A stretch of 64,000 nucleotides of DNA, from positions 1,984,001 to 2,048,000 of the forward strand of contig NZ_CP041616.1 in the NCBI RefSeq assembly GCF_007197575.1. Reading direction: 5' to 3'. Every line of letters starts with the position of its first letter. Positions within the stretch are counted from its first letter, which is position 1. Below are positions 36,279 to 60,452 of this stretch, piece after piece. Both the position numbers and the translations under genes were made by a program. Below the pieces are notes generated by a model. That model saw only the letters and a program-made list of their open reading frames with translations. It was not told the origin of the DNA and ran no database searches. The DNA is from Ornithinimicrobium ciconiae. Lineage in GTDB: Bacteria > Actinomycetota > Actinomycetes > Actinomycetales > Dermatophilaceae.

Positions 36279-36547
36279 GTGAACTCCTGAGAGAAGGAAG
36301 GTGGGCGGTGGGCTCACCGAGGACAGTCGTGAACACGTCTGCTCCTCTCCTCCGGGCCGGGGTCGCGGCCGGTGCGTGCACGGCAGGTGTTGCCGTATGT
36401 CGTGTGCCAGGGTCGCGCAGATGTGCCGCGGTCGGCAAGTGGTTTTGTGAGTGGCAGCGAAACCACTGCAAAAAGACGGGGCGGACCCGCGAAACCACTG
36501 CAAAAAGGCGGGGCGGACCCGCGAAACCACTACATAGATTGGGGGGG
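36279..36547. other. Intergenic region between RIO kinase and selB
   Basis: It contains the RIO kinase promoter and ribosome site and copy A of the dispersed repeat (36441-36545), which lies against the selB stop codon. Nothing else is recognised. Confidence 0.6.
36458..36545 (+). repeat. Dispersed 32-bp repeat, copy A
   Basis: AAACCACT blocks begin at 36460, 36492 and 36524, exactly 32 apart. Each of the first two is followed by GCAAAAAG and then a G-rich hairpin part (CGGGGCGGACCCGC). An inverted AAGTGGTTTT at 36438-36447 flanks the left. It is the only copy in an intergenic region and the only one with three units. Confidence 0.85.
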
Positions 36548-38509
36548 TCAGCGGACGACCTGGCGCAGCTGCCCGTCCGTGCGGCGGGTCCAGCCCCGGG
36601 AGTCCAGGTGCTCCAGCAGGGGCACGGCCACCCGCCGTGTCGTGTCGAGGGCCTGACGGGCGGCGCTGAGGGTGAACGGTTGCTCCAGGGCCGCGAGCTC
36701 GCGCATCGCCCGGGCGGGGCCGTCAGGCAGCAGGATGATGTCGCCGGGCAGGCGCAGGAGGCGATCGGCCCGGGCGGCAGCGGCCAGCTCGGTGGTGCCC
36801 AGTCCGAGCGAGGCCAGCTCATCGCGCTCCGGGGCGGCGAACGGCTCCTGGCGCAGCCGGTCCTCAAGGCTCGCGACCGCTTCCTCTGCCGCCCCGAGCC
36901 CGCCGGAGCCCGGTGCCCGCACGCGTCCGCCGCTGATCGTCAGGCCGGTGTCCTGTGCGAGGTGTCGCACCAGGTCGGGGACCAGCGGTGACAGGTCGTG
37001 GGGCAGAGTGCCCCCGTCCGTGCTCGGCCGCAGGTGATCGGGAAGGTCGAGTTCCCGGCCCGCCTCGGCCACCGGCACGCCATGACTCAGCGGCTGCTGC
37101 TCGTGGTGGTCACGCACGAAGCGGCTGAGGCGGGCGCTCCACAGGGTGAGCGCGTCGGGGTCGACCCACCACTGGCCGACCCGCACGGCACCCGTCGGCT
37201 CGGGCAGGCACAGCCTGGATAGGACGGAGGGGTGCTCGGCCGATCGGGACCGCACGCGCGTCATGGTGGCGGCGAAATGTGGGGTGGAGTCGGCCTCGGT
37301 GGTCGCGGCCCCGTCGCCGGCCAGTTCCGTGGCGCGTCGGCCTCCGTCGCCGGCCAGCTCCGCCGCGCGTCGGCGGCCGGCGCCCCGGCGCCGCAGCGGC
37401 AGGGGATCGACGTCGAGGATGCGCAGCGACCACAGGCGGCGGTCACCGGGGTCGCGCAGGATCGCCAGGTCACCCACGTGCCAGGGCAGCGAGACCTCTG
37501 TGGTGATCCGGGCGTAGCTGACCTCGACCACCGTGCCCGAGACTGGGGCATCACCATCACCAGCACCCATGAGCGGCCGAACATGCGCGGGCTGAGCTGC
37601 CGTCCCGACGTGCAGGATCGCCTCCGTGGGTGGAGTTGCCCGCTCCTGGCGGGAGTGCCCAAGGCCGGTGTCGACGGGCTCGAGGGAGACATCGATGACC
37701 TGCGCCTCGGCGTAGGCACCCGGGGTGACCAGCACGGAGGAGCGGCCGGCGACGTCGGTCTCCGTGCGGCGCAGGTTGACCGCGACCCGGGAGACCGGGC
37801 CCACCACGTCATGGGGCTGGTCCTCGCTCTGCAGTCCGCGGACGACGACCTCCCGCGACTGCTCACCAGAGAGCAGGGTCAGACGGTCACCGGTGTGCAG
37901 GGTGCCGGCACCGAGCGTGCCGGTTACCACGGTGCCGGCCCCGGAGATGGTGAACGAGCGGTCGCACCACAGGCGCGCCGGGGCCTGCGGGTCCGGGGCG
38001 GGCATCCGCCCCACGAGATCGTCCAAGGCCACGCGCAGGTCCTCGATCCCCTCACCGGTCGCCGCGGAGACGGTGCACGCCGGCAGGGCCAGGCCTGCCC
38101 CGGCGAGGTGCCGACTGGCCTCCACGCGGACGGCGTCCACGCGCTCGGGGTCCGCGAGGTCGCACCGGGTGAGCACGAGCAGACCGTCGCGGATGCCCAG
38201 GGCGCGGACGGCCGCGAGGTGCTCTGAGCTCTGGGCCTGCCACCCCTGGTCGGCAGCGACCACGAACACCACGGCGGCGGACGGTCCCAAACCCGAGAGC
38301 GTGGTTGCCACGAAGCGTTGGTGTCCGGGCACGTCCACGAAGGCGACGTCGGCACCGCCGGGCAGTTGCGTCCAGGCAAAGCCGAGCTCGATGCTCAGGC
38401 CGCGGGACTTCTCCTCCCCGAGCCGGTCGGGGTCCCGGCCGGTGAGCGCCCGCACCAGCGTCGACTTGCCGTGGTCGACGTGCCCCGCCGTGGCCAGCAC
38501 CCGCTTCAC
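36548..38509 (-). CDS. selB: Selenocysteine-specific translation elongation factor
   Basis: A 653-residue SelB. The GTPase domain starts VLATAGHVDHGKSTLVRALTG with G1, FVDVPGHQRFVATTL is G3, and VLTRCDLAD stands in place of NKxD. Two beta-barrel domains follow. The C-terminal half holds the winged helices that bind the SECIS hairpin of selenoprotein mRNA. Between barrel and winged helices (near residue 360) a short tandem duplication adds two RRAxELAGDG-like units. GTG 38509 follows GAAGGAG; the open frame upstream crosses the tRNA gene and is not used. It works with the neighbouring tRNA-Sec and SelD to decode UGA in fdhA. Confidence 0.95.
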   Translation of the reverse strand: MKRVLATAGHVDHGKSTLVRALTGRDPDRLGEEKSRGLSIELGFAWTQLPGGADVAFVDVPGHQRFVATTLSGLGPSAAVVFVVAADQGWQAQSSEHLAAVRALGIRDGLLVLTRCDLADPERVDAVRVEASRHLAGAGLALPACTVSAATGEGIEDLRVALDDLVGRMPAPDPQAPARLWCDRSFTISGAGTVVTGTLGAGTLHTGDRLTLLSGEQSREVVVRGLQSEDQPHDVVGPVSRVAVNLRRTETDVAGRSSVLVTPGAYAEAQVIDVSLEPVDTGLGHSRQERATPPTEAILHVGTAAQPAHVRPLMGAGDGDAPVSGTVVEVSYARITTEVSLPWHVGDLAILRDPGDRRLWSLRILDVDPLPLRRRGAGRRRAAELAGDGGRRATELAGDGAATTEADSTPHFAATMTRVRSRSAEHPSVLSRLCLPEPTGAVRVGQWWVDPDALTLWSARLSRFVRDHHEQQPLSHGVPVAEAGRELDLPDHLRPSTDGGTLPHDLSPLVPDLVRHLAQDTGLTISGGRVRAPGSGGLGAAEEAVASLEDRLRQEPFAAPERDELASLGLGTTELAAAARADRLLRLPGDIILLPDGPARAMRELAALEQPFTLSAARQALDTTRRVAVPLLEHLDSRGWTRRTDGQLRQVVR

Positions 38510-38549
38510 CCGGGCTCCTTCCCGCGCCGGGAGCACCCGGCATACGTGG

Positions 38550-38645
38550 TGGCGGAGGCGGACGGGAATCGAACCCGCCAGACCGAGATGCTCGGCCTCG
38601 CCGGTGTTGAAGACCGGGGGGCCCACCAGGAACCCAGACGCCTCC
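38550..38645 (-). tRNA. selC: tRNA-Sec (anticodon UCA)
   Basis: A 96-base gene on the minus strand. The acceptor arm GGAGGCG (38645-38639) pairs with CGCCTCC (38560-38554), followed by G and an encoded CCA. The anticodon stem CCGGT/ACCGG holds the loop CTTCAAC with anticodon TCA. The T arm has GGTTCGATTCC. The long variable arm CCGAGCATCTCGG and the overall length of about 95 are hallmarks of tRNA-Sec. It sits between selB and selD, 40 bases upstream of selB. Confidence 0.95.
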
Positions 38646-38705
38646 ACCCGGCAGCCTACCCGGGCCACCGGGCGCGACCGGAGTGCCAGGTGGCAGAGTT
38701 GGGCC

Positions 38706-39713
38706 ATGGACACCCTGCGACTGACCCAGTTCGCGCGCGGCGGTGGCTGCGCCTGCAAGATCCCGGCCGGGGAGCTCGAGCAGATCATCGGGGGACTGCA
38801 GGTCGTGCTGCCCGACCCGGCTGCCGAGGTGCTCGTCGGACTGGACGACGGTGACGACGCCGCTGCCGTCCGCATCGAGGGTGGGACGGCGCTGCTGTCC
38901 ACCGCGGACTTCTTCACCCCGGTGATCGACGATGCCTATGACTGGGGCCGGATCGCGGCGGCCAACGCGCTCTCCGACATCTATGCCATGGGCGGCACGC
39001 CGGTCATGGGCATCAACCTGGTGGCCTGGCCGCGGGAGGCGCTGCCGACCGAGCTGCTGCGCGAGGTGCTGCGCGGCGGTCTCGACGTCGCCGCACTGGC
39101 CAGCTGCCCCGTTCTGGGAGGCCACAGCATCGACGGGCCCGAGCCGATGTATGGCATGGCAGTCACCGGCACAGCCGACCCCGACCGGCTGATGCGCAAC
39201 GACGCGGCGCAGGCCGGGTTGCCGATCTCGTTGACCAAGCCGCTGGGGGTCGGGGTGCTCAACAACCGGCACAAGGCCACCGGTGAGGTGAGCCAGGAGG
39301 CCGTGGAGAGCATGACGGCGCTCAACCGGGACGCCTCCCTGGCTGCCCTCGCGGCGGGGATCCGGGCAGCCACAGATGTCACCGGCTTCGGCCTGTTGGG
39401 CCACCTCTACAAGATGTGCCGGGCCTCCAGCATCGCCGCCCGGATCGACGCCTCCGCCGTTCCGTATGTCGCCGGGGCCCGCGAGGCGCTGGCCGCCGGT
39501 CACGTGCCGGGCGGGTCCCGTCGCAACCTGGAGTGGGTCCGGCCCTCCCTGGCCGCTGTCTCCGGGATCAGCGAGGACGAGTTGATCCTGCTCGCCGACG
39601 CCCAGACCTCCGGCGGTCTCCTGGTCGTCGGTGAGATCCCCGGTGCCCCGGTGATCGGCGAGACCGTCTCCGCCGGAAGCCTGGGCGAGGGTGTGCTGAT
39701 CCAGGTCAGCTGA
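38706..39713 (+). CDS. selD: Selenide, water dikinase (selenophosphate synthetase)
   Basis: A 335-residue SelD, which makes selenophosphate from selenide and ATP for selenocysteine synthesis. The glycine-rich N-terminal loop GGGCACKIP has Cys and Lys at the catalytic positions (Cys form, not Sec). AIRS/PurM-type motifs follow: GDDAAAVR, DFFTPVIDDAYDWGRIAAANALSDIYAMGG, LGGHSIDGPEPMYG and ATDVTGFGLLGHL. ATG 38706 has no ribosome site; CAGAGT six bases upstream may be a leaderless -10. It is divergent from tRNA-Sec and selB, as often in actinobacterial sel clusters. selA is absent from the window. Confidence 0.95.
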   Translation: MDTLRLTQFARGGGCACKIPAGELEQIIGGLQVVLPDPAAEVLVGLDDGDDAAAVRIEGGTALLSTADFFTPVIDDAYDWGRIAAANALSDIYAMGGTPVMGINLVAWPREALPTELLREVLRGGLDVAALASCPVLGGHSIDGPEPMYGMAVTGTADPDRLMRNDAAQAGLPISLTKPLGVGVLNNRHKATGEVSQEAVESMTALNRDASLAALAAGIRAATDVTGFGLLGHLYKMCRASSIAARIDASAVPYVAGAREALAAGHVPGGSRRNLEWVRPSLAAVSGISEDELILLADAQTSGGLLVVGEIPGAPVIGETVSAGSLGEGVLIQVS

Positions 39714-39745
39714 TCTCACCGGTCACGCTGGTCACCCGGCGGCGG

Positions 39746-41125
39746 TCAGGTGGTGGCGGGTGCAGTGCCCGGGTGCTTCGGCGGCTTGGCGATGAACGGC
39801 AGGACCGCACCGGCCAGAGCCATGATGCCGACCACGGTGTAGCCCAGGACGTAGGCTCCGTCCGCGCCGACCAGCCAGGAGATCAGCATCGGCCCGATGA
39901 TGCCGCCGATGGACCAGCCGACCAGCATCAGACCATAGATCGCACCGGCGTGCTTGACGCCGAAGAAGTCACCCGCGGTGGACGGCATCGTGCCGAAGGC
40001 GCCGCCGTAGCAGGTGTAGATGACGGCGGCGAGGATGTAGAAGAGCGCGGCATTGCCGGCGTGAGGGATCGCGAGCAGGGCCACGCCCTGGATCACGAGG
40101 ATGCCCAGGAAGGCTGGCATCCGCCCGATCTTGTCGGAGATGCCTGCCCACAGGATGCGGCCACCACCGTTGAACAGCCCCATGACTCCCACCAACGTCG
40201 CCGCGCCCGCAGCGGTGAAGCCGGCCACGTCCGTGGCCGTGTCCGCCGCGATGGAGATCAGGGAGATGCCGGCGCTGACGGAGATGGTCAGGATCAGGGT
40301 GAGCAGATACCACTGCGGCGTGCTGAGGGCTTCCTTGGGGGTGAAGTCGTGTCCGGCGGCGTTGCGTGCCGCGGGCGCAGGCTCCGAGGTGGTCCGCGTG
40401 TCCTGTGCGCCGACCGTGTGTGCGGCAGGGTCCGCACTGTCGTCGGAAGCCAGGGCCGCGGCGGGCGCGGCAGCACTGGGCACCGTGTAGCCCTCAGGCG
40501 GGTTGCGGAAGACCGACGCGCCCAGGACCCCGGCGATCAGGTAGGCGACGCCGAGCCAGAGGAAGACCTTCGTGGGGTACTGCTGGTAGTCGGCGCTGCC
40601 GGCGATCATCTGCTGAGCCAGGGGAGAGGTGATGACCGCACCGAAGCCGAACCCACCGACCGCGATGCCGGTAATGAGACCGCGCTTGTCGGGGAACCAC
40701 TTCTGGAGCATCGCGATCGGCACGATGTAGGCCAGGCCGAGACCGAACCCGCCGAGCACGCCATAACCCAGGATGAGCATCCACAGGTCGGACGCGTCGC
40801 GGGTGAAGCTGGCCAGCATGATGCCCAGCGAGTAGATCGTGACGCCGACGAGGGCAACGATGCGGGGTCCGCGCTTGTCCTGCGCGCGGCCACCGAGGAA
40901 GCTGCCGACAAAGATCATCCCGATGGCGACGGTGAACGGCAACGTCGCCTGCACCGGGGTGAGCTCGATCGCCGACGGGTCGGCCTGGATCGCCTTGCTG
41001 AAGGTGCTCCACGCATAGACGGCGCCGATGGCAAGCTGCACGAGCACGCCCCCCGCGAGAATGAGGAGGCGGTTTCCCCCCGCCGTGGTGGCCGGTGACT
41101 GGCTGGTGTCCGGTGTCGTGGCCAT
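39746..41125 (-). CDS. OFA-family MFS transporter (oxalate/formate antiporter type)
   Basis: A 459-residue MFS protein of the oxalate/formate antiporter family. The start NRLLILAGGVLVQLAIGAVYAWSTFSKAI is the family signature, followed by GGRAQDKRGPRIVAL and AMLQKWFPDKRGLITGIAVGGFGFGA. A charged central loop of about 60 residues separates the halves. Being the last gene of the formate dehydrogenase operon, formate or a related acid is the likely substrate. ATG 41125 follows TAGGAG by five bases; that TAG is also the stop codon of the previous gene, so the two are coupled. Confidence 0.9.
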   Translation of the reverse strand: MATTPDTSQSPATTAGGNRLLILAGGVLVQLAIGAVYAWSTFSKAIQADPSAIELTPVQATLPFTVAIGMIFVGSFLGGRAQDKRGPRIVALVGVTIYSLGIMLASFTRDASDLWMLILGYGVLGGFGLGLAYIVPIAMLQKWFPDKRGLITGIAVGGFGFGAVITSPLAQQMIAGSADYQQYPTKVFLWLGVAYLIAGVLGASVFRNPPEGYTVPSAAAPAAALASDDSADPAAHTVGAQDTRTTSEPAPAARNAAGHDFTPKEALSTPQWYLLTLILTISVSAGISLISIAADTATDVAGFTAAGAATLVGVMGLFNGGGRILWAGISDKIGRMPAFLGILVIQGVALLAIPHAGNAALFYILAAVIYTCYGGAFGTMPSTAGDFFGVKHAGAIYGLMLVGWSIGGIIGPMLISWLVGADGAYVLGYTVVGIMALAGAVLPFIAKPPKHPGTAPATT

Positions 41126-41133
41126 GCGCACTC

Positions 41134-42309
41134 CTATCGCACGGTGACCGTGCTGTCGTGGATGGTGCCAGCCGCTCGGCGCTCCTCCAGGCGTCGCTTC
41201 TGTGGGCCGACGGTGTACTTCGGGTCACGGGCGGACTCCATGCCTGCGTCCACCACGCCGAATCGGGTCAGGGCCGAGGCACCGGCCAGCGCCAGGCCGG
41301 AGGCGACGGCGACCACGCGGCTGCGTCCGGCCAGCAGGGTGCCCAGACCGCCAGCGATGGTCAGTGCCTTGGCCAGCCGCAGCTTCGTGCCCGCTGGTCC
41401 GGTGGTGGTCGGCTCGTCGAGCTCCAGGTCCTCGAGGTGCTCCTCGAGACGGTGCATGGCCACGAGATCCGCCGCCACTCCCAGCAGTGCGAACCGGCGG
41501 GCCGGGCCGGCCTGCTCGGTCGGGGTGAGCACCATCTGCACGCCGGCGGACGCCATCGCGGCCGACCCGACGAAGACAAAGGGCAGCTGACGCCGGGCCT
41601 CGAACCACACCGGCGTCACCGTGTCGGAGAGCAGGACCGCGGTGTAGGCCGCCAGGGGTGGGGCGAAGAAGGCCTGGCCGGCGGCCGCCGGTGCGTCGAC
41701 CGCTTCGAGCAGCCGGGCCAGGGTGCCGACCACGCCACGCTCTGGCAGTGGGAGGAGGCGCGCGACCTCGGTGGCGGTCGTCACGCCGGTGAAGGCCGCA
41801 TAGCCGGACAGGATCCAGGTGCCGACCGACATGGGTGAGGTGAGCTTGACCGTGCGCATCATGTTGAGGAAGCGCTCGGGCCGGCCCAGGTCGGCCACCA
41901 GGAAGGCACCACTCATCGCCACCCCCGTCATCGCGGTGAGGCGGCTGTTGCGACGCAGCAGCTCCCGACCGGTGGCTGCCGCGCCGGTGGCGATGAGACC
42001 GGAGCCGGCCGCGATACCCCCGACGAACAGGTAGGCCGGGATCTTGTAGTCCCACGGCACAGGCTTGATGACGGCGCGCCCGTAGTAGCTGGAGAACTCC
42101 GCGTCGGGGACGGCCGGGGCCTCGCGGCGGCCCCCACCGTCACGGTTGAGCCAGCTGGTGCCGCCCCTGGCGGCGCCGCGGCTGCCCTTGGCGACGCCCC
42201 GGGCCGCGTCAGAGACCGCCCCGGTCACGGCACCGCGGACGCCGCTGCGGCGGCGTCGTCGGCCACCCTCGTCAGGTGGCCGGTAGCTGTCGAAGGGGGA
42301 GGTGGTCAC
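41134..42309 (-). CDS. NrfD/PsrC-type membrane subunit of formate dehydrogenase
   Basis: A 391-residue membrane protein of the NrfD/polysulfide-reductase family, with about eight membrane segments from residue 75 on. Typical sequence is VPWDYKIPAYLFVGGIAAGSGLIATG and VADLGRPERFLNMMRTVKLTSPMSVGTWIL. The N-terminal 70 residues are Arg/Gly-rich and cytosolic. NrfD proteins bind quinone and bind no heme, so this enzyme differs from FdnI-type cytochrome b systems. It should pass electrons from the Fe-S subunit to menaquinone. GTG 42309 overlaps the previous stop (GTGA) after GGAGGG. Confidence 0.9.
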   Translation of the reverse strand: MTTSPFDSYRPPDEGGRRRRRSGVRGAVTGAVSDAARGVAKGSRGAARGGTSWLNRDGGGRREAPAVPDAEFSSYYGRAVIKPVPWDYKIPAYLFVGGIAAGSGLIATGAAATGRELLRRNSRLTAMTGVAMSGAFLVADLGRPERFLNMMRTVKLTSPMSVGTWILSGYAAFTGVTTATEVARLLPLPERGVVGTLARLLEAVDAPAAAGQAFFAPPLAAYTAVLLSDTVTPVWFEARRQLPFVFVGSAAMASAGVQMVLTPTEQAGPARRFALLGVAADLVAMHRLEEHLEDLELDEPTTTGPAGTKLRLAKALTIAGGLGTLLAGRSRVVAVASGLALAGASALTRFGVVDAGMESARDPKYTVGPQKRRLEERRAAGTIHDSTVTVR

Positions 42310-43502
42310 CGTCGCCCTCCCAGGAAGGCCAGCGCCCCGGCTGCCAGCAGACCGGTCCCGGCCCAGCCCGCCGCGCGGAACATCTCGGCCAGCTTGGAGG
42401 TGGCACAGACCGGGTCCGGGGGCAGCCCATAGACCTCCGGCTCGTCGAGCAGCAGGAAGACCGAGCCGGTCCCGCCGACACCGTCGTCGTCGTTGGCGCC
42501 ATAGAGCCGCGCCTCGGTGAAGCCCTGCTCGTGGAGTTGGACGACCCGATGCTTCGCGGCGGTCACCATGTCCTCGCGGGCCCCGAACTGGATCGAGGTG
42601 GTCGGGCAGGTCTGGGCGCAGGCGGGCGTCTGGTCGTGGCTGAGACGGTCGTAGCAGAGCGTGCACTTCTGGGCGACACCGACATTGGGGACGTGGCCGT
42701 CACCGCGCACCGACACCGAGGCGTCGGTGCGGCGCTCGATGACCCCGAAGGGACAGGCCCCGACGCAGTAGCCGCAGCCGTTGCAGATGTCGTCCTGGAC
42801 CACGACCGTGCCGTGCTCGCTGCGGAAGAGCGCGCCCGTCGGGCAGACGTCCAGACACCCGGCGTGCGTGCAGTGCTTGCAGACGTCGGAGGCCATCAAC
42901 CAGCGGAACTCCGGCAGCGGACCCACCATCGGGATGCCGTCGACCGTGGTGCCCAGACCACCACCCGCGGACAGCGGGTCGGCGCCGTTCTCGACAGCCT
43001 CCTTCTCCGAGAGCAGGTCACCGAGGGAGGGACCACCGTGCTCCGGCGGCGCCGGCAGCGTCCCGTAACCCGCGGGAGCCCCACCAATTTGCGAGTGGTT
43101 TTGCGGGTCTGGCCCGTCTTTTCGTAGTGGTTTTGTCGATCCGCCGCCCGGCGCCTCGGGTGCGGGGGAGGCAGAGCCGACGGTCGGCATACCCAGATCG
43201 ACCAGGCGGCGCCCGGACTCGCGGGCGGCCTCGATGCGGTTTTTGCTCTGCTCCACGAAGGCGACGTGGCGCCAGGTGCTCGCGCCCAGGTCGCCGGTGT
43301 TGTCGTAGGAGTTGCCGGTGAGATCCAGGCTCCCGTCCATCGGCAGGGCGTTCCACTCCTTGCACGCCACCTCACAGGCCTTGCAGCCGATGCAGATCGA
43401 GGTGTCGGTGAAGAAGCCCTTGCGGCTGGGCGGCTCCTCCCACCCCGCGTCCGCGGCGGGGTCCGTGCGTCCGGCGAGTTGGCGGGCGAGATAACCCATC
43501 AC
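42306..43502 (-). CDS. fdhB: Formate dehydrogenase Fe-S (beta) subunit
   Basis: A 398-residue four-cluster ferredoxin-like subunit. The Cys groups are CIGCKACEVACKEW near residue 38, CKHCTHAGCLDVCP, CNGCGYCVGACPFG, and CTLCYDRLSHDQTPACAQTCP, matching four [4Fe-4S] clusters as in FdnH. A single hydrophobic segment at the C-terminus (GTGLLAAGALAFLGG) would anchor it. Residues about 120-143 (STKPLRKDGPDPQNHSQIGG) are encoded by copy B of the dispersed repeat and sit in a Pro/Gly-rich loop with no Cys. GTG 43502 overlaps the fdhA stop; ATG 43499 right after is an alternative. Confidence 0.93.
   Translation of the reverse strand: MMGYLARQLAGRTDPAADAGWEEPPSRKGFFTDTSICIGCKACEVACKEWNALPMDGSLDLTGNSYDNTGDLGASTWRHVAFVEQSKNRIEAARESGRRLVDLGMPTVGSASPAPEAPGGGSTKPLRKDGPDPQNHSQIGGAPAGYGTLPAPPEHGGPSLGDLLSEKEAVENGADPLSAGGGLGTTVDGIPMVGPLPEFRWLMASDVCKHCTHAGCLDVCPTGALFRSEHGTVVVQDDICNGCGYCVGACPFGVIERRTDASVSVRGDGHVPNVGVAQKCTLCYDRLSHDQTPACAQTCPTTSIQFGAREDMVTAAKHRVVQLHEQGFTEARLYGANDDDGVGGTGSVFLLLDEPEVYGLPPDPVCATSKLAEMFRAAGWAGTGLLAAGALAFLGGRR
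43083..43143 (-). repeat. Dispersed 32-bp repeat, copy B (inside fdhB)
   Basis: On the plus strand AGTGGTTT blocks begin at 43094 and 43126, exactly 32 apart. On the coding strand each block is AAACCACT and the first is followed by ACGAAAAGACGGG and a CGGG/CCCG hairpin. The frame of fdhB stays open through it. Confidence 0.85.
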
Positions 43503-46500
43503 TGGTCTCCATCCACGTCGGGGGGCGGGGCGTCACCAGCAGCGTTCTCCCGGAGCCCGGTGGCCTCGGACGAGACGTCCGAGAGACGCTGGCTGCCGGT
43601 CTCGGTCGTGGAGCCCGCGCGGGACTGATACTCGGCCACCAGCCGCAGCAAGGCCTCGCCGCGGGGGCGACGACCAGGCTGTATGTCGCACGAGCCCACC
43701 TTGGACTCCTGGATCTGGACGTTGGGGTCCAGCACGATGCCGAGCAGGTCATTGGCGCCGTCGCCCTCGACCACCGCGTCGCCGCCGACACCCCAGTGGT
43801 AGGGCAGACCGATCTGGTGGACGGTGTGCCCCTTGATCGTCAGCGGGGTCATCCGCTGGGTCACCAGCACCCGGGCCTCGATGGCACTGCGTGCGGAGAT
43901 GATCGTGGCCCACTCGCCGTTGGTCAGGCCGCGCTCGGCCGCCAGCTCGGGGGAGATCTCACAGAACATCTCCGGCTGCAGCTCGGAGAGGTAGGGCAGC
44001 CACCGGCTCATCCCACCGGCCGTGTGGTGCTCGGTCAGCCGGTAGGTCGTGAACACGTAGGGGTAGACCTCAGACCCGGGCTCGGTGCCCGACGGTGCCC
44101 ACAGGTTGTCCTTGCGCGGGTAGATCAGCCGGCTCGGGTTGCTCTGCTGGGGATAGAGCGGGTTGGGGATCGGCGACTCGTGCGCCTCGTAGTGGGTCGG
44201 CAGCGGACCGTCGACCATGCCCTTGGGAGCAAACAGCCAGCCCTTGCCATCGGCCTGCATGATGAACGGGTCGTCGCCCGCGATCGCGGCAGGACCGCCG
44301 ATGTCGGGGTCGGGTCGGAACGAGGGGTCCCGGTCGACCGGGAAGTCCGGCACGTCCTTGCCGACCCACTTGCGCTGGTCCTCGTCCCACCAGACATATT
44401 TCTTGCGCTCGCTCCACGGCTTGCCCTGGGGGTCCGCCGAGGCCCGGTTGTAGAGGATCCGCCGGTTCATCGGCCAGGCCCAGCCCCACTCAGCGGCGGT
44501 CTCGTCCTGCTCCGAGCCGGGGACCCGGTTGTCGGAGCGGTTGACCCCGCCGGCGAAGACGCCGGTGTAGATCCAGCACCCGCCGGAGGTCGACCCGTCG
44601 GCCTTCATGTCGGCGAACTTGTCGAGCAGCTGCCCCGCGCGCTCACCGGTCAGGTGATAGCCGTTGATCTCCTTCAGGACGGCCTCCCCGCTGGGCTCGC
44701 CGTGCTCGTCGACCGGGTAGTCCCAGGTCAGGTCGAGCAGGGGGCGGTCGCGCTCGTCGGTCGAGCCCGCCAGGCGCTCCCGGATGCGGTTGCCCAGGTC
44801 GTAGAAGAACTCCAGCTCGCTGCGGGCGTCGCCCGGTGGCTGCACCGCCTGGTGGCGCCACTGCAGCATCCGCTGGGTCTGGGTGAACGTCCCCGACTTC
44901 TCCACGTGGTTGGCCGCGGGGAAGAAGAAGACCTCGGTGTCGATGTCTTCGGTGCGCAGCTCACCGGTGGCGATCTCGGGGGAGTCCTTCCAGAAGGTCG
45001 CGGTCTCGATGAGCTGGAAGTCACGCACCACGACCCACTTCAGGTGGGTCAGCGCCATCCGCTGCATCTTGCCGTGAGCCGACCCGACCGCGGGGTTCTG
45101 CCCCAGGACGAAGTAGCCCTCGACCTCGTCGTCCAGCATGGCCATGGCCGTCTGGTAGGTGCCGTGGGCACCGGTCAGCTTGGGCAGGTAGTCGAAACAG
45201 AAGTCGTTCTCGGGCGTGGCCGCGTCGCCCCACCAGGCCTTGAGCAGGCTGGCGGTGTAGGCGTCGGCCTCGGTCCAGAAACCCTTCTGCAGCGGCGAGG
45301 AGATCGTGGACAGGTAGTCCTGCAGGTTGTCGTGCTCACCGGCCATCGGCATCGGCAGGTAGCCCGGCAGGATGTTGAACAGCGTCGGGATATCGGTGGA
45401 GCCCTGGATGCTGGCGTGCCCGCGCAGGGCCATGATCCCGCCACCGGGGCGGCCCATGTTGCCCATCAGCAGTTGCAGGATCGCGGCGGTGCGGATGAAC
45501 TGCGCGCCCAGGCTGTGCTGGGTCCAGCCGAGGGCGTAGGCGAAGCAGGTCGTCCGCTCCCGGCCGGAGTTGTCGGTCAGCGCTCGGGCCACCTCGTCGA
45601 ACAGCTCGACCGGGATGCCGCAGACCTCCTGGACCATCTCGGGGGTGTAGCGCGAGTAGTGGCGCTTGAGGATCTGGAAGACCGAGCGCGGGTGCTGCAG
45701 GGTCTCATCCCGCACCACGTTGGCGTGCTCGAGCGCTGCCCCGGCCGCGCCGAGCTCGTCCCCGGCGGCACGGGCCCGCTGGCTGGCCCCGGACTCGTCG
45801 TCACCGTCAGGCTCCTGGATCTGACCGTCCCCCATTTCCGTAGCGGTTTCGCTGGCGGAACCCGCATTTTTGTCGGGGTTTTGCGGGTCCATCTTCTCGG
45901 CATACGACCAGGAGGAGGTGTCGTAGGTGCCGGTCTCGGGGTCGAACCCGGAGAAGAGACCGCCCAGGTCCTCGGTGTCGACGAACTTCTCGTTGATCAG
46001 GGTCGCGGCGTTGGTGTAGGCGACGACGTAGTCATGGAAGTAGAGGTCCTTGCTCAGCACGTGGTTGATCAGGGCGCCCAGCAGCACGACATCCGTGCCG
46101 GCGCGCAGCGGGACGTGCGTGTCAGCGATCGCCGAGGTGCGGGTGAAGCGCGGGTCGACGTGGATGATCCGCGCGCCCTTGGCCTTGGCCTCCGAGACCC
46201 ACTGGAACCCCACCGGATGGCACTCGGCCATGTTGGAGCCCTGGATGATGACGCAGTCGGCATTGGCCATGTCCTGCAGGGACTGGGTGGCGCCGCCACG
46301 ACCGAACGAGGATCCCAGACTGGGAACCGTGGAACTGTGTCAAATGCGTGCTTGGTTCTCGATCTGGATCGCCCCGGAAGCCGTGTAGAGCTTCTTCATC
46401 AAATAGTTTTCCTCGTTGTCGAGGGTGGCTCCCCCGAGCGAGGCGATGCCCATCGTGCGGCGCACGCGGTGGCCCTTGTCGTCGAACTCCTGCCACTTGT

Positions 46501-46912: not shown

Positions 46913-46940
46913 GTCCACCTCCACGCTGAGTGCTTGCCTG

Positions 46941-51927: not shown

Positions 51928-52045
51928 GGCACACCGCCAGCGCAGCATGCCGTCAGCCCACCGCCCTGAAGCCGAGCGTCACCGCAGGGCGTCGTCAGAT
52001 CGCCCGCGCAGTGGGTGGGTGGCCATGGTGAGGACCACGACCGGA

Positions 52046-52058
52046 TAGGTTGAAGGGG
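52046..52058 (+). promoter_or_regulatory. Leaderless promoter
   Basis: TAGGTT (52046-52051) stands six bases before GTG 52058. Confidence 0.5.
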
Positions 52059-52831: not shown

Positions 52832-52837
52832 GAGCTT

Positions 52838-52932
52838 CCACCCCGCGCTCGAAGGGAGCGCAATCCCACGCGCACGGAGTGAGGGCAACCCCGCGCGCTG
52901 GAGTCAGCGCAACCCCACGCCCTCGGTCTGAG
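52838..52932. repeat. Four degenerate tandem repeats of 24-25 bp
   Basis: Units begin with CCACCCCGCGCTC (52838), CAATCCCACGCGC (52861), CAACCCCGCGCGC (52886) and CAACCCCACGCCC (52910), each ending in a G-rich GGAG/TCAG part. They lie after the phosphatase stop and before the transport-operon promoter. Confidence 0.65.
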
Positions 52933-53030
52933 GGGAGAGCGTCACACGGTGCGCCCCGTCGGGGACTTGGGGGAGAGGTGCCCTGAACTGCACAAACGCC
53001 GTCGTGACCACATTGTGATGTGCGTCTGCG

Positions 53031-53089
53031 TTGACTTCCCTCGTCGACCTCGATACGTTTCCCCTGAAACCTGAATCACCTTTCAGGTT
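53031..53089 (+). promoter_or_regulatory. Promoter and 22-bp operator of the branched-chain-type transport operon
   Basis: TTGACT (53031-53036) and TACGTT (53054-53059) are spaced 17 bases apart. Just downstream, over the expected start of transcription, AACCTGAA (53068-53075) and TTCAGGTT (53082-53089) form a perfect 8-bp inverted repeat with a 6-base spacer. This is the size of a TetR-family operator, and a tetR gene is the seventh in the operon. Confidence 0.8.
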
Positions 53090-53117
53090 GGCAGTCCCAC
53101 ACACAAAGGAGTGCTTG

Positions 53118-54365: not shown

Positions 54366-55117
54366 CCGCCACCGCGCTGGAGGTCCGGGACCTCTCGCTG
54401 CGCATCGGCGGGGCACAGATCCTGGAGGACATCTCCTTCACCGTGCCGACCGGTCAGATCGTCGGCGTCATCGGCCCCAACGGGGCCGGCAAGACGACGC
54501 TGTTCAACCTGATCTCCGGCGTGATGACCCCCTCCACGGGCAGCGTGCGGCTAGACGGACGTGACGTCACCGGTCGCTCGGTGACCCAGCGGGCGGTCGC
54601 CGGTCTCGGCCGGACCTTCCAGACATCCTCGGTCTTCCCTGCCCTGTCGGTGGAGGAGAACGTGCGCCTGGCCGCTCAGGTCACCGAGGGCCACGCCATC
54701 TCGCTGTTCACCTTCCCCCGACGCGGCGACCGCGCCTCGGCCCGCGCCCGCTCCCTGCTGCAGGAGGTCGGGCTGGGGGACCGGATGGACTTCCGCGCCG
54801 GTGACCTGCCGCACGGCGACAAGCGCAAGCTCGAGATCGCGATGCTGCTGGCCACCGACCCCTCGGTGGTGCTGCTCGACGAGCCGATGGCCGGGGTCGC
54901 CTCCGGAGATGTCGCCGGGCTGACCGAGGTGATCCGCAGCCTGCACACCGAGCATGGCTGCACCGTGCTGATGGTCGAGCACCACATGGAGGTGCTGCTC
55001 GGGCTCGTCGAGCGCGTGGCGGTGCTGCACTTCGGGCACCTGCTTGCCATCGACACCCCGGACGCCGTCATGGCCGACCCGACCGTTCAGAGCGCCTACC
55101 TGGGAGAGTCCGTATGA
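54362..55117 (+). CDS. ABC transporter ATPase, LivG type
   Basis: A 251-residue ATPase. Walker A is VIGPNGAGKTTLFNLISG, GRTFQTSSVFPALSVEENV is typical of LivG, and the signature reads LPHGDKRKLEIAMLLA, the usual LivG variant of LSGGQ. Walker B is VVLLDEPMAGV and the H-loop VEHHMEV. It overlaps the previous gene by four bases (GTGA). It forms a heterodimer with the next ATPase. Confidence 0.93.
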   Translation: MTATALEVRDLSLRIGGAQILEDISFTVPTGQIVGVIGPNGAGKTTLFNLISGVMTPSTGSVRLDGRDVTGRSVTQRAVAGLGRTFQTSSVFPALSVEENVRLAAQVTEGHAISLFTFPRRGDRASARARSLLQEVGLGDRMDFRAGDLPHGDKRKLEIAMLLATDPSVVLLDEPMAGVASGDVAGLTEVIRSLHTEHGCTVLMVEHHMEVLLGLVERVAVLHFGHLLAIDTPDAVMADPTVQSAYLGESV

Positions 55118-55881
55118 CGCCCGCGACCCAGTCCGAGCCTGTCGCCACCGCCACCGGGCAGGTGAGCGAGGCGGTGCTCTCCGTCCGGGGCCTGCAGGCG
55201 CACGTCGCCGGTCAGCAGGTTGTCGAGCATGTCGACCTGGACGTGGCCGCCACCGGCGTGACCGCACTGCTGGGCCGCAACGGCGTCGGCAAGACCTCGA
55301 CCATCAAGGCCGTCATGGGCCTGATCGGTCGCTCCGGGCAGATCACTCTTGAGGGGCGCGACATCGCCGACCTGCCCACCCACAAGGTGGCTCAGCTGGG
55401 CGTGGGCTATGTGCCTGAGGACCGGGAGGTCTTCTCCGCGCTGACCGTCACCGAAAATCTGCGGATCGCCGAGCGCAAGGGGCACGACCACCAGTACGAC
55501 CTGGTCTATGACCTCTTCCCCGAGCTCAAGGAGCGCGGGAGCCAGGCGGCCGGCACGCTGTCCGGCGGGCAGCAGCAGATGGTGTCGCTGGCGCGTGCCC
55601 TGCTCAACACCAACCGAGTGCTCCTCATCGACGAGCCGACCAAGGGCCTGGCGCCACGCCTCGTCCAGGAGGTCGGGCAGGTCCTGGCCCGGGCGGCCGA
55701 GGTCGTCCCGGTGCTCCTGGTGGAGCAGAACCTACAGGTGGTGCGCGACCTCGCCAACCACGCAGTTGTCCTCACCGGCGGTCGTAGCGTCCATGCCGGA
55801 CCCGCCGCAGAGTTCCTCAACGACCCCGACCTGACCCAACGCCTGCTGGGCGTCAGCACAGGTGCGGAGGGAGCTGTATGA
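55114..55881 (+). CDS. ABC transporter ATPase, LivF type
   Basis: A 255-residue ATPase. After a 20-residue Thr/Ala-rich start, Walker A is LLGRNGVGKTSTIKAVMG. GVGYVPEDREVFSALTVTENL, signature GTLSGGQQQMVSLARALL, and Walker B RVLLIDEPTKGLAP are all characteristic of LivF. It starts at an ATGA overlap with livG-type gene and ends in one with the permease gene. Confidence 0.93.
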   Translation: MTPATQSEPVATATGQVSEAVLSVRGLQAHVAGQQVVEHVDLDVAATGVTALLGRNGVGKTSTIKAVMGLIGRSGQITLEGRDIADLPTHKVAQLGVGYVPEDREVFSALTVTENLRIAERKGHDHQYDLVYDLFPELKERGSQAAGTLSGGQQQMVSLARALLNTNRVLLIDEPTKGLAPRLVQEVGQVLARAAEVVPVLLVEQNLQVVRDLANHAVVLTGGRSVHAGPAAEFLNDPDLTQRLLGVSTGAEGAV

Positions 55882-56753
55882 ACGACGTCATCCTGCTCGC
55901 GGTCACCGGTCTCGGCCTCGGTGCGATCTACTTCCTGGTCGCGTCCGGACTGTCCCTGATCTATGGCCTGATGGGCGTGCTGAACTTCGCCCACGGTGTC
56001 TTCCTGTCCCTGGGCGCCTTCCTCGGCCTCGAGGTCGCACAGCGACTGGGTGCCTCCACCTGGACCGGCTTTGCCGCGTCCCTGGTCGTGGGTGCCCTGG
56101 CCGGTGCGCTCTTCGCGGCCGCGACCGAGCGCATCCTGGTCCAGAAGCTCTATAACCGGCACATCGAGCAGGTGCTGGTCACCGTCGGTCTGGGCCTGGC
56201 CGCCGTCGCGCTCTTCGACGGCATCTGGGGCACGGACCCGCGCTTCCCGCGCGGTCCGGCCTGGCTGGACCAGACCACCAAGATCGGTGGCGCCAGCATC
56301 CCCAACATCGTCTTCGTCGCGATCGTCTCGGCGGTCGCCGTGCTGGCCGCCATCGTGCTCTTCCTCAAGCACACCCGCTACGGCATGATCATCCGCGCCG
56401 GCGTGGAGAACCGCTCGATGGTGACGGCGCTGGGCATCGACGTGCGCACGGCCTTCACCCTGGTCTTCACGATCGGTGGTGCGGCCGCCGGCATCGGCGG
56501 TGTGCTCGCCTCGCACCACTTCGGTTATGTGTCCCCGATGCTGGGGCAGACGCTGCTGATCTTTGCCTTCATCGTGACGGTCATCGGTGGTCTCGGCTCC
56601 CTGATCGGCGCCGCCGTCGCCTCCGTGCTCGTCGCCCTCATGCAGCAGTTCGCCAACTTCTATCTGGCCGGCACCGGAGACTTCGCTGTCGTCGTGCTGC
56701 TCGCCCTGGTGCTGCTCACCCGACCGTCCGGCCTGATGGGGAGGAAGGCATGA
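55878..56753 (+). CDS. ABC transporter permease, LivH type
   Basis: A 291-residue permease with about eight membrane segments. LivH features: GLGLGAIYFLVASGLSLIYGLMGVLNFAHGVFLSLGAFLG at the start, AGVENRSMVTALGIDVRTAFTLVF as the ATPase-contact loop, and a conserved C-terminal GGLGSLIGAAVASVLVA. Overlaps both neighbours by four bases. With the LivM-type protein it forms the channel. Confidence 0.93.
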   Translation: MNDVILLAVTGLGLGAIYFLVASGLSLIYGLMGVLNFAHGVFLSLGAFLGLEVAQRLGASTWTGFAASLVVGALAGALFAAATERILVQKLYNRHIEQVLVTVGLGLAAVALFDGIWGTDPRFPRGPAWLDQTTKIGGASIPNIVFVAIVSAVAVLAAIVLFLKHTRYGMIIRAGVENRSMVTALGIDVRTAFTLVFTIGGAAAGIGGVLASHHFGYVSPMLGQTLLIFAFIVTVIGGLGSLIGAAVASVLVALMQQFANFYLAGTGDFAVVVLLALVLLTRPSGLMGRKA

Positions 56754-57997
56754 CCACCATGAACACGCACAACGCCGACAAGGGCCGCGACGCCCAGCAG
56801 GGGCGGTCCGCCGCTGAGACAGCAATCGACAAGAAGGTGGGGGAGATGCGTCACGGGGCCACGGCTGCGCCGGAGACCTCCGGCCGCACGGACCTGCGCT
56901 CGCGCCTGTTGAGCCTGATCGTGCCGATCGGCCTCGTCGTCCTGCTGGCCTGCCTGCCGCTGCTCAACCTCTCGATCCCGGGCGTGCTCCCGGGCGCGAC
57001 CTACACCCCGGGCACCCTGCACCTGCTGGCGCTGGCCATGGTGATGGCCGGTGTGGCCCTGTCCTATCACCTGCTCTTCGGGGTGGCCGGCCTGCTCTCC
57101 TTCGGTCACGCGCTCTACTTCGGCATCGGCGCCTACGGCCTCGGCATCGTCATGGCCGAGCTCGAGCTGGGGCTGGTGCCCGCGGCGCTGGTGGTGCTGG
57201 TGGCCGCAGTGGTGATGTCGCTCCTGCTGGGCGCGGTGTCGCTGCAGGTGACCGGCATCCCGTTTGCCATGGTCACCCTCGCCTTCGCGCAGGCCGGCTT
57301 CGTGCTGGTCCGCAAGAACCCCGGCAAGCTCACCGGCGGCGAGGAGGGCATGCGCCTGCCGACCGATTACGTGCCGGACTGGCTGGTCGGGGTGGCGGAC
57401 ACCCGCAACCTCTACTGGGTGGCGCTGGCGGCCCTCGTCGTGGCCTTCATCGTCGTGACCTGGGTGCAGCGCAGCCGGGCCGGCCACGTCGCGGCAGCGG
57501 TCCGGGAGAACGAGCTGCGGGTCCAGGTCCTGGGCATGCGCCCGTTCCTGGTCAAGCTGGCGATCTTTGTCGCCGCCTCGGTCATTGCCGCCGGCATGGG
57601 CATGGTGCACCTGCTGCTCAACTCCGGCGCGGTGCCGCACGTCATGAGCGCCGAGCTGACGATCTCCCTGCTGCTGATGGTCGTGCTCGGCGGTGTCGGC
57701 TCACGCTGGGGCGCCGTCGTCGGCGCGTTCGTCTATGTCATCCTCAGCCAGCGCCTCGCCGTGCTGGCCCAGTCCGACACCATCCACGACCTGCCCGCGG
57801 TGCTGCGCATCCCGCTGTCCGAGCCGATGTTCATCCTGGGTGTCATCTTCATCCTGGTCGTGATGTTTGTGCCGGGCGGACTCAGCGCGCTGGGCCTGCG
57901 GCTGTGGGCGCTCTTCTCGCGCCGGGCCCGGTCACAGCTGGCCGAGAGGCCGCGGACCCCGGACGAGCTCGTGGCAGGGGATGATCAGCAGTCATGA
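56750..57997 (+). CDS. ABC transporter permease, LivM type
   Basis: A 415-residue permease. The first 50 residues are charged and cytosolic, unusually long for LivM. About nine or ten membrane segments follow. Family sequence includes GVAGLLSFGHALYFGIGAYG, VRENELRVQVLGMRPFLVKLAIFVAAS (ATPase contact) and LGGVGSRWGAVVGAFVYVIL. It completes the importer and overlaps the acyl-CoA ligase gene by four bases, so import and activation are produced together. Confidence 0.92.
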   Translation: MTTMNTHNADKGRDAQQGRSAAETAIDKKVGEMRHGATAAPETSGRTDLRSRLLSLIVPIGLVVLLACLPLLNLSIPGVLPGATYTPGTLHLLALAMVMAGVALSYHLLFGVAGLLSFGHALYFGIGAYGLGIVMAELELGLVPAALVVLVAAVVMSLLLGAVSLQVTGIPFAMVTLAFAQAGFVLVRKNPGKLTGGEEGMRLPTDYVPDWLVGVADTRNLYWVALAALVVAFIVVTWVQRSRAGHVAAAVRENELRVQVLGMRPFLVKLAIFVAASVIAAGMGMVHLLLNSGAVPHVMSAELTISLLLMVVLGGVGSRWGAVVGAFVYVILSQRLAVLAQSDTIHDLPAVLRIPLSEPMFILGVIFILVVMFVPGGLSALGLRLWALFSRRARSQLAERPRTPDELVAGDDQQS

Positions 57998-59670
57998 GGA
58001 CTGACGTGACTTCCGCTCCCAGCACGTGCGGCGCGCACACGCTGGGTCGCTGGCCCACCGACCGGGCCCGGCTGCACCCGGGCCGGGTGGCCATCGTCGA
58101 CCGTGGTGTCGAGCTGACCTACCGCGACCTGGACGAGCGCTCCGCGGCACTCGCCCAGGCCTGGCGGCGGGCCGGCTACCGGCACGGTGACCGCGTGGCC
58201 ACCCTGGTCGGCAACAGCGCGGAGCACGTCATTGCCTTCTTCTCCTGTGCCCGAGCGGGTCTGGTGCTGGTGCCGCTGTCCTGGCGGCTGACCGCCGGCG
58301 AACTGGCCGACCAGCTCACGCAGGCCGACCCGGCCGTGCTGCTGGTCGAGGACGAGACCGAGACCCTGGCCCGGGGCGCACTGGCCAAGGTGCACGCCCG
58401 CGTCCCCACGGCATACGTCGGGCAGGTCGGCGTGGAACAGCCGGTCCCGGACCCGTGGCACAGCATCTCCCCGGCGTCGGCCGGCGAGCAGGGGGATTCC
58501 CCGGCGTATGCCGACGCGCACCTGCCCGCTGCGGCGCTCGGGCGACCGGGTCTGCCGCTGGGGTCGCGACCGGTGCAGGACGAGGACCCGCTGCTGATGG
58601 TCTTCACCTCGGGCAGCTCCGCCCGACCCAAGGCCGCCGTGCTCACCCATGCGTCCTGCTTCTGGACCAACCTGTCGCTGTCGCGCACCCTGGAGCTGGA
58701 CGAGACCGATGTGGTGCTCAGCGTGCTGCCCCAGTTCCACGTCGGCGGATGGAACATCCAGCCGCTGCTGGCGTGGTGGACCGGCGCGACCGTCGTGCTC
58801 GAGAGGTCCTTCGACCCCGGTCGGGCCCTCTGCCTCATCGCCGAGCACAAGGTCACCACGATGATGGGGGTGCCCACGCACTATGCCCGGCTCGCCGAGC
58901 ACCCCACCTTTGAGCGCACCGACCTCACCGCCCTGCGCAGTGCGGTCGTCGGCGGTGCCCCCATGCCCGCACCGCTGCTGCGGATCTTTCACGAGCACGG
59001 CGTGGCGCTCACCCAGGGTTATGGCCTCACCGAGGCCGGACCCAACGTGCTCTGCGTCCCACCGCGCCATGCGATGGAGCGCATCGGTTGGGCCGGGGTG
59101 CCCTATCCGCACGTCGAGGTGCAGCTGGCCGACCCCACCACCGGGGAGCACCTGGACGGACCGGGCACCGGCGAGCTGCTCGTGCGCGGTCCGGGACTGT
59201 TTGCCGGCTACTTCCGGGACGTGTCCGCGACCCGGGCGATCTGGCGCAACGGCTGGTTGGCGACCGGCGACGTCGCGACCCGGGACGAGGCCGGCTACCT
59301 GCGGATCGTGGACCGGCTGCGCAATATCTACATCTCCGGCGGCGAGAACGTCGCCCCCGCCGAGGTCGAGGCGGCGCTGCGGGCCCACCGTGCGGTCCAG
59401 GACGTCTGCGTCGTCGGGGTCCCTGACGACCGGTGGGGAGAGCGGGGTGTCGCCCTCGTGGTTCGTCGCAACGGGGTCGTCACGGACGCGCCCGAGCTGA
59501 TGGAGCATGCCCGCGAGCGACTGGCCGCCTTCAAGGTGCCGACCGCGGTGCACTTCGTCGCCGAACTGCCCTACGGGTCCCTGGGCAAAATCTCGCGCCA
59601 GCGGGCCCTCGACCTCGCCCTGGAGGCTGAGGGAGCCGCCCGCCAGACGGCATACGAGGTGCGGCCGTGA
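57994..59670 (+). CDS. Acyl-CoA synthetase / AMP-dependent ligase
   Basis: A 558-residue ANL-superfamily ligase that forms an acyl-adenylate and then an acyl-CoA. Motifs: MVFTSGSSARPKAAVLTH (P-loop, A3), YGLTEAGPN (A5), NGWLATGDVATRDEAGYLRIVDRLRNIYISGGENV (A7-A8 hinge) and PYGSLGKISRQ with the catalytic Lys (A10). It resembles medium-chain or aromatic acid ligases. The imported compound is the likely substrate. Near residue 150-195 there is a Pro/Gly/Ala-rich insertion not seen in most members. Confidence 0.92.
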   Translation: MRTDVTSAPSTCGAHTLGRWPTDRARLHPGRVAIVDRGVELTYRDLDERSAALAQAWRRAGYRHGDRVATLVGNSAEHVIAFFSCARAGLVLVPLSWRLTAGELADQLTQADPAVLLVEDETETLARGALAKVHARVPTAYVGQVGVEQPVPDPWHSISPASAGEQGDSPAYADAHLPAAALGRPGLPLGSRPVQDEDPLLMVFTSGSSARPKAAVLTHASCFWTNLSLSRTLELDETDVVLSVLPQFHVGGWNIQPLLAWWTGATVVLERSFDPGRALCLIAEHKVTTMMGVPTHYARLAEHPTFERTDLTALRSAVVGGAPMPAPLLRIFHEHGVALTQGYGLTEAGPNVLCVPPRHAMERIGWAGVPYPHVEVQLADPTTGEHLDGPGTGELLVRGPGLFAGYFRDVSATRAIWRNGWLATGDVATRDEAGYLRIVDRLRNIYISGGENVAPAEVEAALRAHRAVQDVCVVGVPDDRWGERGVALVVRRNGVVTDAPELMEHARERLAAFKVPTAVHFVAELPYGSLGKISRQRALDLALEAEGAARQTAYEVRP

Positions 59671-60452
59671 GCGCCGGGGGAGCAGCGCAGCCGGTGGACC
59701 GGACGGCCCGCACCCCACGCGGGGCGCGCACCCGCGCCAAGCTGCTGGAGGCCGCCGAGCACGTCTTCGCGACGGTGGGCTACCACGAGGCTTCTATCGT
59801 GAAGATCACCGAGCAGGCCGGGGTCGCCCTCGGCACCTTCTACACCCACTTCGAGGGCAAGAAGGAGATCTTCGACGAGGTCGTGCTGGACCTGTCCCAC
59901 CGGGTCCGGCACGCCATGAGCGGTGCCTCCCGCGGTGTCACCGACCGGATCGAGGCCGAGCGGGCCGGTTTCCGGGCGTTCTTCCGGTTCACCGCCGAGC
60001 ACCCGGCGCTCTATCGCATCATCCGGCAGGCCGAGTTCGTCTCGCCGGAGTCGATGCGCCGCCACTACGACAACATCGTGGACGGCTATGCCTCCGGACT
60101 GGCGGCAGCCCGTGAGCGGGGCGATATCCGCGACGTCGACCCCGTCGTGGCCGCCTGGGCACTGATGGGCGCCGGCGAGCTGATTGGGATGCGGTGGGTG
60201 CTGTGGGAGCAGGCCGACCAGATCCCCGAGCACATCTATGAGGGACTGATGGACGTGATCCGCGGTGCTCTCGCGCCGGATCAGTCGGAGTCGGGTCAGT
60301 CGGAGTCGGGTCAGCCGGAGTCGGGTGAGTCGGAGTCGGGTCAGTCGGAGTCCTCAGCGGACCGGGGACGTGCGAAACCACTGCAAAAAGGCGGGGTGGA
60401 CCTACGAAACCCCTCTGAAAATTCGGGGTCAACGGAAGGAATGCAGCAATGA
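59667..60452 (+). CDS. TetR-family regulator with repeat-derived tail
   Basis: A 261-residue repressor. The HTH is in residues about 20-65: GARTRAKLLEAAEHVFATVGYHEASIVKITEQAGVALGTFYTHFEGKKEIF. A helical ligand domain runs to about 205. The remaining 55 residues are unusual: five 5-residue units of the form QSESG encoded by a 15-bp repeat, then AKPLQKGGVDLRNPSENSG encoded by copy D of the dispersed repeat. It lies in the middle of the operon and probably binds the 22-bp inverted repeat at its promoter. GTG 59667 overlaps the ligase stop. Confidence 0.9.
   Translation: MSAGGAAQPVDRTARTPRGARTRAKLLEAAEHVFATVGYHEASIVKITEQAGVALGTFYTHFEGKKEIFDEVVLDLSHRVRHAMSGASRGVTDRIEAERAGFRAFFRFTAEHPALYRIIRQAEFVSPESMRRHYDNIVDGYASGLAAARERGDIRDVDPVVAAWALMGAGELIGMRWVLWEQADQIPEHIYEGLMDVIRGALAPDQSESGQSESGQPESGESESGQSESSADRGRAKPLQKGGVDLRNPSENSGSTEGMQQ
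60282..60356 (+). repeat. Five 15-bp tandem repeats in tetR
   Basis: CAGTCGGAGTCGGGT and close variants begin at 60282, 60297, 60312, 60327 and 60342. The fifth copy diverges at its end. Confidence 0.85.
60366..60430 (+). repeat. Dispersed 32-bp repeat, copy D (inside tetR)
   Basis: AAACCACT (60375-60382) and AAACCCCT (60407-60414) are exactly 32 apart. The first is followed by GCAAAAAGGCGGGG, as in copy A, and the second by CTGAAAATTCGGGG. It encodes part of the TetR tail and ends about 20 bases before the next gene's start. Confidence 0.85.

Follow-up and report, generated by a model that had tools for sequence, protein, structure and literature searches.

Repeat arrays in the window

The window, a stretch of 64,000 nucleotides from the chromosome of Ornithinimicrobium ciconiae, carries four short arrays of a 32-bp repeat unit, designated A to D. 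The original prediction had placed related blocks at these four loci, on the plus strand at A and D and on the minus strand at B and C, and had proposed that they belong to a dispersed family. All four loci were borne out, as were the strands and the phasing of 32 bases, and a whole-genome search established the family as genuine, with at least 95 arrays of the unit GAAACCnCTnnnAAAATGCGGGnnnGACCTAC dispersed over the 4.09-Mb Ornithinimicrobium genome. The arrays are polar and nearly always hold two or more units, and those facing a gene on the opposite strand mostly end close to its stop codon. Genomes of the genus are referred to by label, G000 being the one that holds the window. The arrays and their genes are as follows.

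36459 to 36547, plus strand: array A, in which two full 32-bp units start at 36459 and 36491 and the last unit, starting at 36523, adjoins the selB stop
36548 to 38917, minus strand: open reading frame (ORF) with SelB as its 3′ part (TIGR00475 selB, 228 bits, short of the 242-bit cut-off)
42306 to 43502, minus strand: FdhB, formate dehydrogenase beta subunit (TIGR01582, 171 bits, below the cut-off of 335)
43080 to 43141, minus strand: array B, in frame within FdhB and made up of a full unit plus a last unit
43499 to 46270, minus strand: FdhA downstream of its probable selenocysteine codon (NF041513, 1535 bits, above the cut-off)
45829 to 45889, minus strand: array C, two units long and divergent, lying in frame within FdhA
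59667 to 60452, plus strand: TetR-family regulator, the G014 orthologue of which ends before the array D stretch
60367 to 60428, plus strand: array D, a full unit plus a last unit within the TetR C-terminal extension, directly upstream of the next gene
60449 to 61183, plus strand: gene after TetR, by eye like a short-chain dehydrogenase, starting about 20 bp after array D

Array A occupies the position typical of the family, beside the stop of the opposite-strand selB gene, the stop codon (TCA on the plus strand, 36548-36550) following immediately after the array. The true selB start probably lies further inside than the start of the ORF. Just upstream of array A, at window positions 36432-36446, lies a partial inverted unit, AGTGGTTTTG; facing arrays were also seen at other convergent gene pairs, for example L110, L112, L121 and L136.

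Anatomy and abundance of the array family

Matches to a sequence model trained on 42 two-unit modules numbered 140 and were merged to 95 arrays (53 on the plus strand and 42 on the minus), the window's four loci included. This number is a lower bound because 150 of 767 candidates were scored. Within the window, the pattern AAACCACTNCNAAAAGRCGGG was matched five times at up to three mismatches, against no match in 100 dinucleotide shuffles, and at the same tolerance the 22-letter pattern GAAACCACTNCAAAAAGNCGGG gave 56 matches genome-wide and none when read backwards. With the origin assumed near position 1, no replication-strand bias was seen (53 of 95). No published description of the repeat was found in a literature search that reached few subscription papers.

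The AAACC motif and the A-tract of the inner unit were conserved at 91-100% in 128 inner units, which had themselves been chosen by a core match of at most two mismatches. The first unit is preceded by a unit end of the ACCTAC type, and the last unit is distinct, terminating in AAAATnGG in place of AAAATGCGGG. By eye, the 5′ end of an array (ACCTACGAAACC) is not an inverted copy of its 3′ end (AAAATnGG). Five last units (L089, L096, L144, L147 and L150) carry a T-tract where AAAA is expected and look as if the A-tract had flipped strand.

Among the 94 arrays that were read, 58 have two units, 24 three, nine four, two five and one a single unit. Because the model had been built on two-unit modules, single units were checked separately in 374 kb of G014 at up to two mismatches of 12. 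Besides the 16 arrays of the context table, five single units were left, against six matches of a reversed-core control; a two-copy minimum is thus observed in the G000 arrays and in the G014 sample. Adjacent inner units within an array were on average 78.5% alike (48 pairs), compared with 62% between arrays. Polarised decay along the arrays is not claimed: the count over all arrays with at least three units was 18 versus 6, but well-matching units alone give 13 versus 6 (P = 0.17).

Position relative to stop codons

Genes were called with our own codon-usage script, trained on the window ORFs and uncurated. By these calls, 35 of the 95 arrays are flanked by convergent genes, 23 by genes that both run opposite to the array, 14 by genes that both run in its direction and seven by divergent genes; a further 14 lie inside genes in the coding orientation and two in the opposite one, both of these weak model matches. 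Genes are not the main habitat of the repeat; its commonest place is immediately behind a stop codon.

Of the 58 arrays facing an opposite-strand gene, 52 end between -15 and +10 bp from its stop, whereas the mirror geometry at the 5′ end of the array was seen in 11 of 49 (P = 6e-13). Read in the gene sense, the layout is stop codon, CC(C)A and TTTT. Of 57 spacings between stop and T-tract, 21 are exactly 4 nt and 40 fall within 3-9 nt. Four outliers have a spacing of 35-46 nt, the same number as there are stop-facing arrays with a T-tract last unit missed by the caller (the two sets were not matched individually). In relatives, 13 of 15 model-found arrays facing an opposite-strand gene showed a 3′ gap between -15 and +3, and in a separate scan of G014, partly overlapping that set, nine of 10 lay between -15 and +2; a gap of -12 or -15 places the stop codon within the last unit.

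Stop-codon usage beside arrays also differed in G000, where TAA was found at 16 of 52 array-adjacent stops and in 12 of 210 other genes, a 5-fold enrichment (P = 3e-6). At eight orthologous stops that have no array in G014, none was TAA in that genome, compared with four of the same eight in G000. In a comparison chosen post hoc, forward arrays stood at tight same-direction junctions in five of 14 cases and reverse arrays in one of 23 (P = 0.02), a small effect and the sole one of orientation seen at operon junctions.

Conservation of sequence and of RNA structure

A GCGGG/CCCGC hairpin, kept with changes on both arms, had been described at the four loci. Its conservation was not confirmed. 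RNAalifold predicted no pair on 42 copies, and the shuffle z-scores for folding of segments near stops averaged -0.6 in the gene sense and -0.2 in the array sense; of the 53 segments scored in each sense, 11 and seven respectively lay below -2. A stem overlapping the stop codon, in which the stop is paired with GGUUUC, was present in 33 of 36 parsable segments and in 221 of 262 genes, a control set that includes array-bearing genes (P = 0.32), and a permutation test did no better. The GCGGG/CCCGC hairpin belongs to some arrays as a local feature; sequence is conserved, and no RNA hairpin is.

Distribution and orthologous sites

Among 31 genomes of the genus, G000, G009, G014, G018 and G023 have 90-153 pattern matches at up to three mismatches, G007 has 13, G019 has three and the remaining 24 have at most two; the backwards control gave at most one within the genus. 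In a DnaJ tree covering 16 of the 31 genomes, the five array-rich genomes form one group with G007 and G019 (support 100/99), and by eye the latter two carry decayed copies. A coarse model search of 396 genomes from the order, in which the filters were stricter and 13 candidates were scored in each genome, matched G000 and none of the 395 others. Exact matches in a species collection fell in 12 stretches, of which four were from Ornithinimicrobium (three from F0845 and one from O. cavernae) and two from Actinomycetales metagenome-assembled genome sequence; the other six were single matches in unrelated organisms, which by our own estimate is about chance. The family is thus restricted to one clade in the genomes searched. 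An origin from phages, plasmids or viral contigs was considered and set aside, neither the exact pattern nor one typed consensus giving a match there at the sensitivity used.

Three sites were compared across the genus, with array presence judged by eye in part. After a gene named by eye as enoyl-CoA hydratase, array-like sequence directly follows the stop in all six genomes of the group in which the site was found, in decayed form in G007; none was seen in 24 other genomes within the 130 nt shown, the stop of G010 being misplaced. After a phosphate-transporter gene, also named by eye, five members of the group have an array, partly decayed in G007 and G009, and no array was seen in G012 or in more distant matches. 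Upstream of dnaJ, where 16 regions of 20 loci were readable, arrays were present in five, a decayed one in G019 and none in 10.

Of the 95 G000 arrays, 25 had their gene within the sampled G014 DNA, which was chosen by expected synteny. The array was kept in G014 at 11 of these sites and missing at 14, with retention at seven of 15 stops, four of six genic positions and none of four sites before starts. Twelve of the 14 array-less sites held nothing unit-like (best 4-6 mismatches of 12), and at the other two whole-gene scans gave three mismatches. The core is preserved in the orthologous arrays compared: over the 11 pairs, core letters were identical at 235 of 242 positions (97%) and variable letters at 98 of 187 (52%), a few pairs being perhaps one unit out of register, which would lower the variable-letter figure. 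The corresponding values for non-orthologous pairs were 97% and 39%. No near-identical copies were seen, the best identity between different G000 loci being 87% over 62 nt (4371 pairs).

The suggestion of a mobile or template-copied element has to be divided accordingly. Current mobility is not supported, given loci at most 87% alike, ends that are not inverted, and arrays kept at some orthologous sites with a preserved core; a past ancestral burst is possible, 14 of the 25 sites being empty in G014. With the core at 97% and the variable letters at 52% in orthologues, old constrained sites fit better than an element that is currently jumping.

In-frame copies in protein genes

Arrays B and C lie in frame in FdhB and FdhA, as had been claimed for three genes of the window. 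For the third, array D lies in a C-terminal extension of TetR beyond the end of the one orthologue examined, that of G014. It had also been anticipated that the genic segments would be missing from sister species, and this proved correct. The FdhB repeat stretch occurs in three of 16 orthologues (G000, G014 and G023), in a linker variable in length and sequence, with perhaps a remnant in G018, and not in the other 12. In FdhA, where six linkers were readable of 16 loci, the unit was found in one, that of G000; the linker is hypervariable, and that of G014 has nearly the same length and no unit. FdhB and the genic positions L108, L111 and L151 carry an array in both G000 and G014. Since the FdhB peptide varies between species while the DNA core stays, the constraint looks to be at the DNA level.

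Several further features of these genes were seen. In the TetR extension before array D (60265-60365) a 15-bp tandem repeat codes for QSESG-like units; no such repeat was seen in the orthologue from G014. An in-frame TGA (46340-46342, minus strand) in IQIENQARI-U-HSSTV makes FdhA look like a selenoprotein; selB and tRNA-Sec (38554-38645) share the window with it, and the G009 match shows two in-frame TGA codons. Rfam models gave two matches in the window at gathering score, neither of them at an array: tRNA-Sec, and the Mycobacterium small RNA ncrMT1302 at 2877-2973 (47 bits, gathering score 45).

A proposed model of factor-read DNA sites

We put at roughly 0.4 the probability that the arrays are lineage-specific, sequence-defined sites in double-stranded DNA, polar and placed at gene boundaries, mainly behind stops, which are read by a putative factor and serve perhaps as a stoperator-like barrier. 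A set of sites for a trans-acting factor is favoured because the arrays are sequence-specific and polar, lack a conserved RNA fold, have a two-copy minimum, keep their core beside changing letters, and have decayed in two species. Under this model, a putative clade-specific DNA-binding factor would read the array core, which is nearly always offered as two or more tandem units about three helical turns apart. Arrays with the factor bound would act as a polar barrier, terminating or blocking any transcription that reaches them from their 3′ side, as phage stoperators do. Arrays read 5′ to 3′ within operons and genes would be tolerated because the barrier is one-sided, and the putative factor would have been lost or reduced in G007 and G019.

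The barrier function is proposed by analogy. Cluster A mycobacteriophage stoperators are described as 13-bp asymmetric sites of the phage genome that are bound by the phage repressor, lie in short intergenic spaces in an orientation tied to transcription, and number more than 20 dispersed copies per genome (PMC9283540). The arrays likewise are asymmetric, dispersed and found in short intergenic spaces, with a gene-tied orientation (52 of 58). Unlike stoperators as so described, they consist of two or more 32-bp units, reside in a bacterial chromosome, would depend on a putative factor, and have a predicted effect on transcription. Stoperators are the closest functional parallel. The fuller proposal, that a chromosome-wide, stop-phased, one-sided barrier imposed by a host factor on two-unit arrays behind chosen genes arose once in the Ornithinimicrobium clade as a counterpart of stoperators and is decaying with loss of the factor, is unlikely in so complete a form.

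Several observations weigh against factor-read barrier sites. No binding factor was found, no search for one having been made. Only 58 arrays face a stop, and termination leaves the seven divergent and 14 pre-start arrays unexplained. The median leftover intergenic gap showed no difference by orientation (101 versus 93, P = 0.85), so that a larger gap behind reverse-oriented arrays was not found. Presence is patchy, with 14 of the 25 G000 sites, including all four pre-start sites, array-less in G014, a pattern that also fits gain by insertion. The contrast between core and variable letters is partly conditioned by detection, because presence was scored by core match and the unit register was unchecked pairwise. 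One of the seven array-bearing G014 stops is TAA, so the TAA link is seen in G000 only. Finally, the bias of genic arrays towards the coding orientation (14 to 2) can be explained by reverse-strand stop codons and says nothing about mechanism.

Alternative explanations

The main rival is a non-autonomous repeat of the BOX or MIRU kind that spread in an ancestor and persisted where its cost was slight, namely behind stops, before ribosome-binding sites and in flexible linkers, the core being the requirement of a former mobilising enzyme. This is a serious possibility, held at somewhat short of even odds. It is consistent with the clade-specific gain and with filled and empty orthologous sites, and the modular arrays have parallels in BOX of Streptococcus pneumoniae, described as having inverted ends and target duplications and as being predicted to fold as RNA (PMC3049150). 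As in BOX, the repeats are scattered and modular, their end modules being distinct and their inner ones varying in number; we also count as a likeness that about half of BOX insertions are common to all strains (PMC3049150). Unlike BOX, the arrays have neither inverted ends nor a conserved fold, so that the terminal inverted repeats and foldable RNA of miniature inverted-repeat transposable elements or BOX were not found. Empty sites were found, with flanks too diverged for a target-site duplication to be read by eye. Insertion at gene boundaries has a precedent in MIRUs, short gene-boundary repeats of an actinobacterium like the arrays, which are reported to insert at start codons with their ORF coupled to the gene (PMC12548453). 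The arrays differ from MIRUs so described in being mostly antisense to the gene and behind stops, 58 of 95 facing one. A repeat of this kind is harder to reconcile with the lack of near-identical copies between loci, the non-inverted ends, the orthologous core preserved while about half of the neighbouring letters differ, and the lack of a relative in the phage, plasmid and viral collections at the sensitivity used. Moreover, passive insertion predicts no 4-nt spacing to any of the three stop codons. The repeat-origin and site readings are compatible, in that copies that first spread as a repeat may later have been retained as sites.

Two other known repeat classes differ from the arrays. REP elements of the RAYT type consist of a hairpin with a GTAG foot; the arrays have no conserved hairpin, and GTAG in the gene sense is not invariant (RAYT itself was not searched for). 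Rickettsia palindromic elements, with which the original prediction had drawn an analogy, are about 150 bp long, encode a conserved peptide and are noted for genic insertion (PMC10969869). The analogy extends to in-frame copies in protein genes and no further: the arrays are about 62 bp or more, show no conserved pairing in place of a palindrome of about 150 bp, and are mostly non-genic.

That the arrays act as RNA, as terminators or exonuclease stops in the gene sense behind the coding region, is improbable. Their place directly behind stops, the T-tracts in the gene sense and the 11 of 53 gene-sense segments with z below -2 are as such elements would have it, but no consensus structure was found, the mean z is -0.6, and the stop-overlapping stem is not in excess. 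The five T-tract last units would also be hardly tolerable for an RNA U-tract, and perhaps tolerable for a DNA A-tract. Least probable is a translational fail-safe supplying extra gene-sense stops in all frames behind the natural stop of a GC-rich genome, which would accommodate the TAG/TGA words on the reverse strand, whose frame changes with each 32-base step (seen by eye, uncounted), the TAA enrichment at array-adjacent stops and the few genes with their own stop inside an array, but would need neither the near-invariant GAAACC nor the two-unit minimum, nor arrays before starts or within genes.

Significance of the array family

Among short bacterial interspersed repeats, many are known to be hairpins or remnants of transposition. 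The array family described here lacks a conserved fold and has no near-identical copies. Its core is nonetheless kept beside letters of which half have changed, and its arrays hold their phase, give or take a few bases, relative to all three stop codons. As intact, decayed and array-free species occur in one genus, gain, function and loss of the arrays are directly testable, and the arrays may lead to a new sequence-specific bacterial factor.

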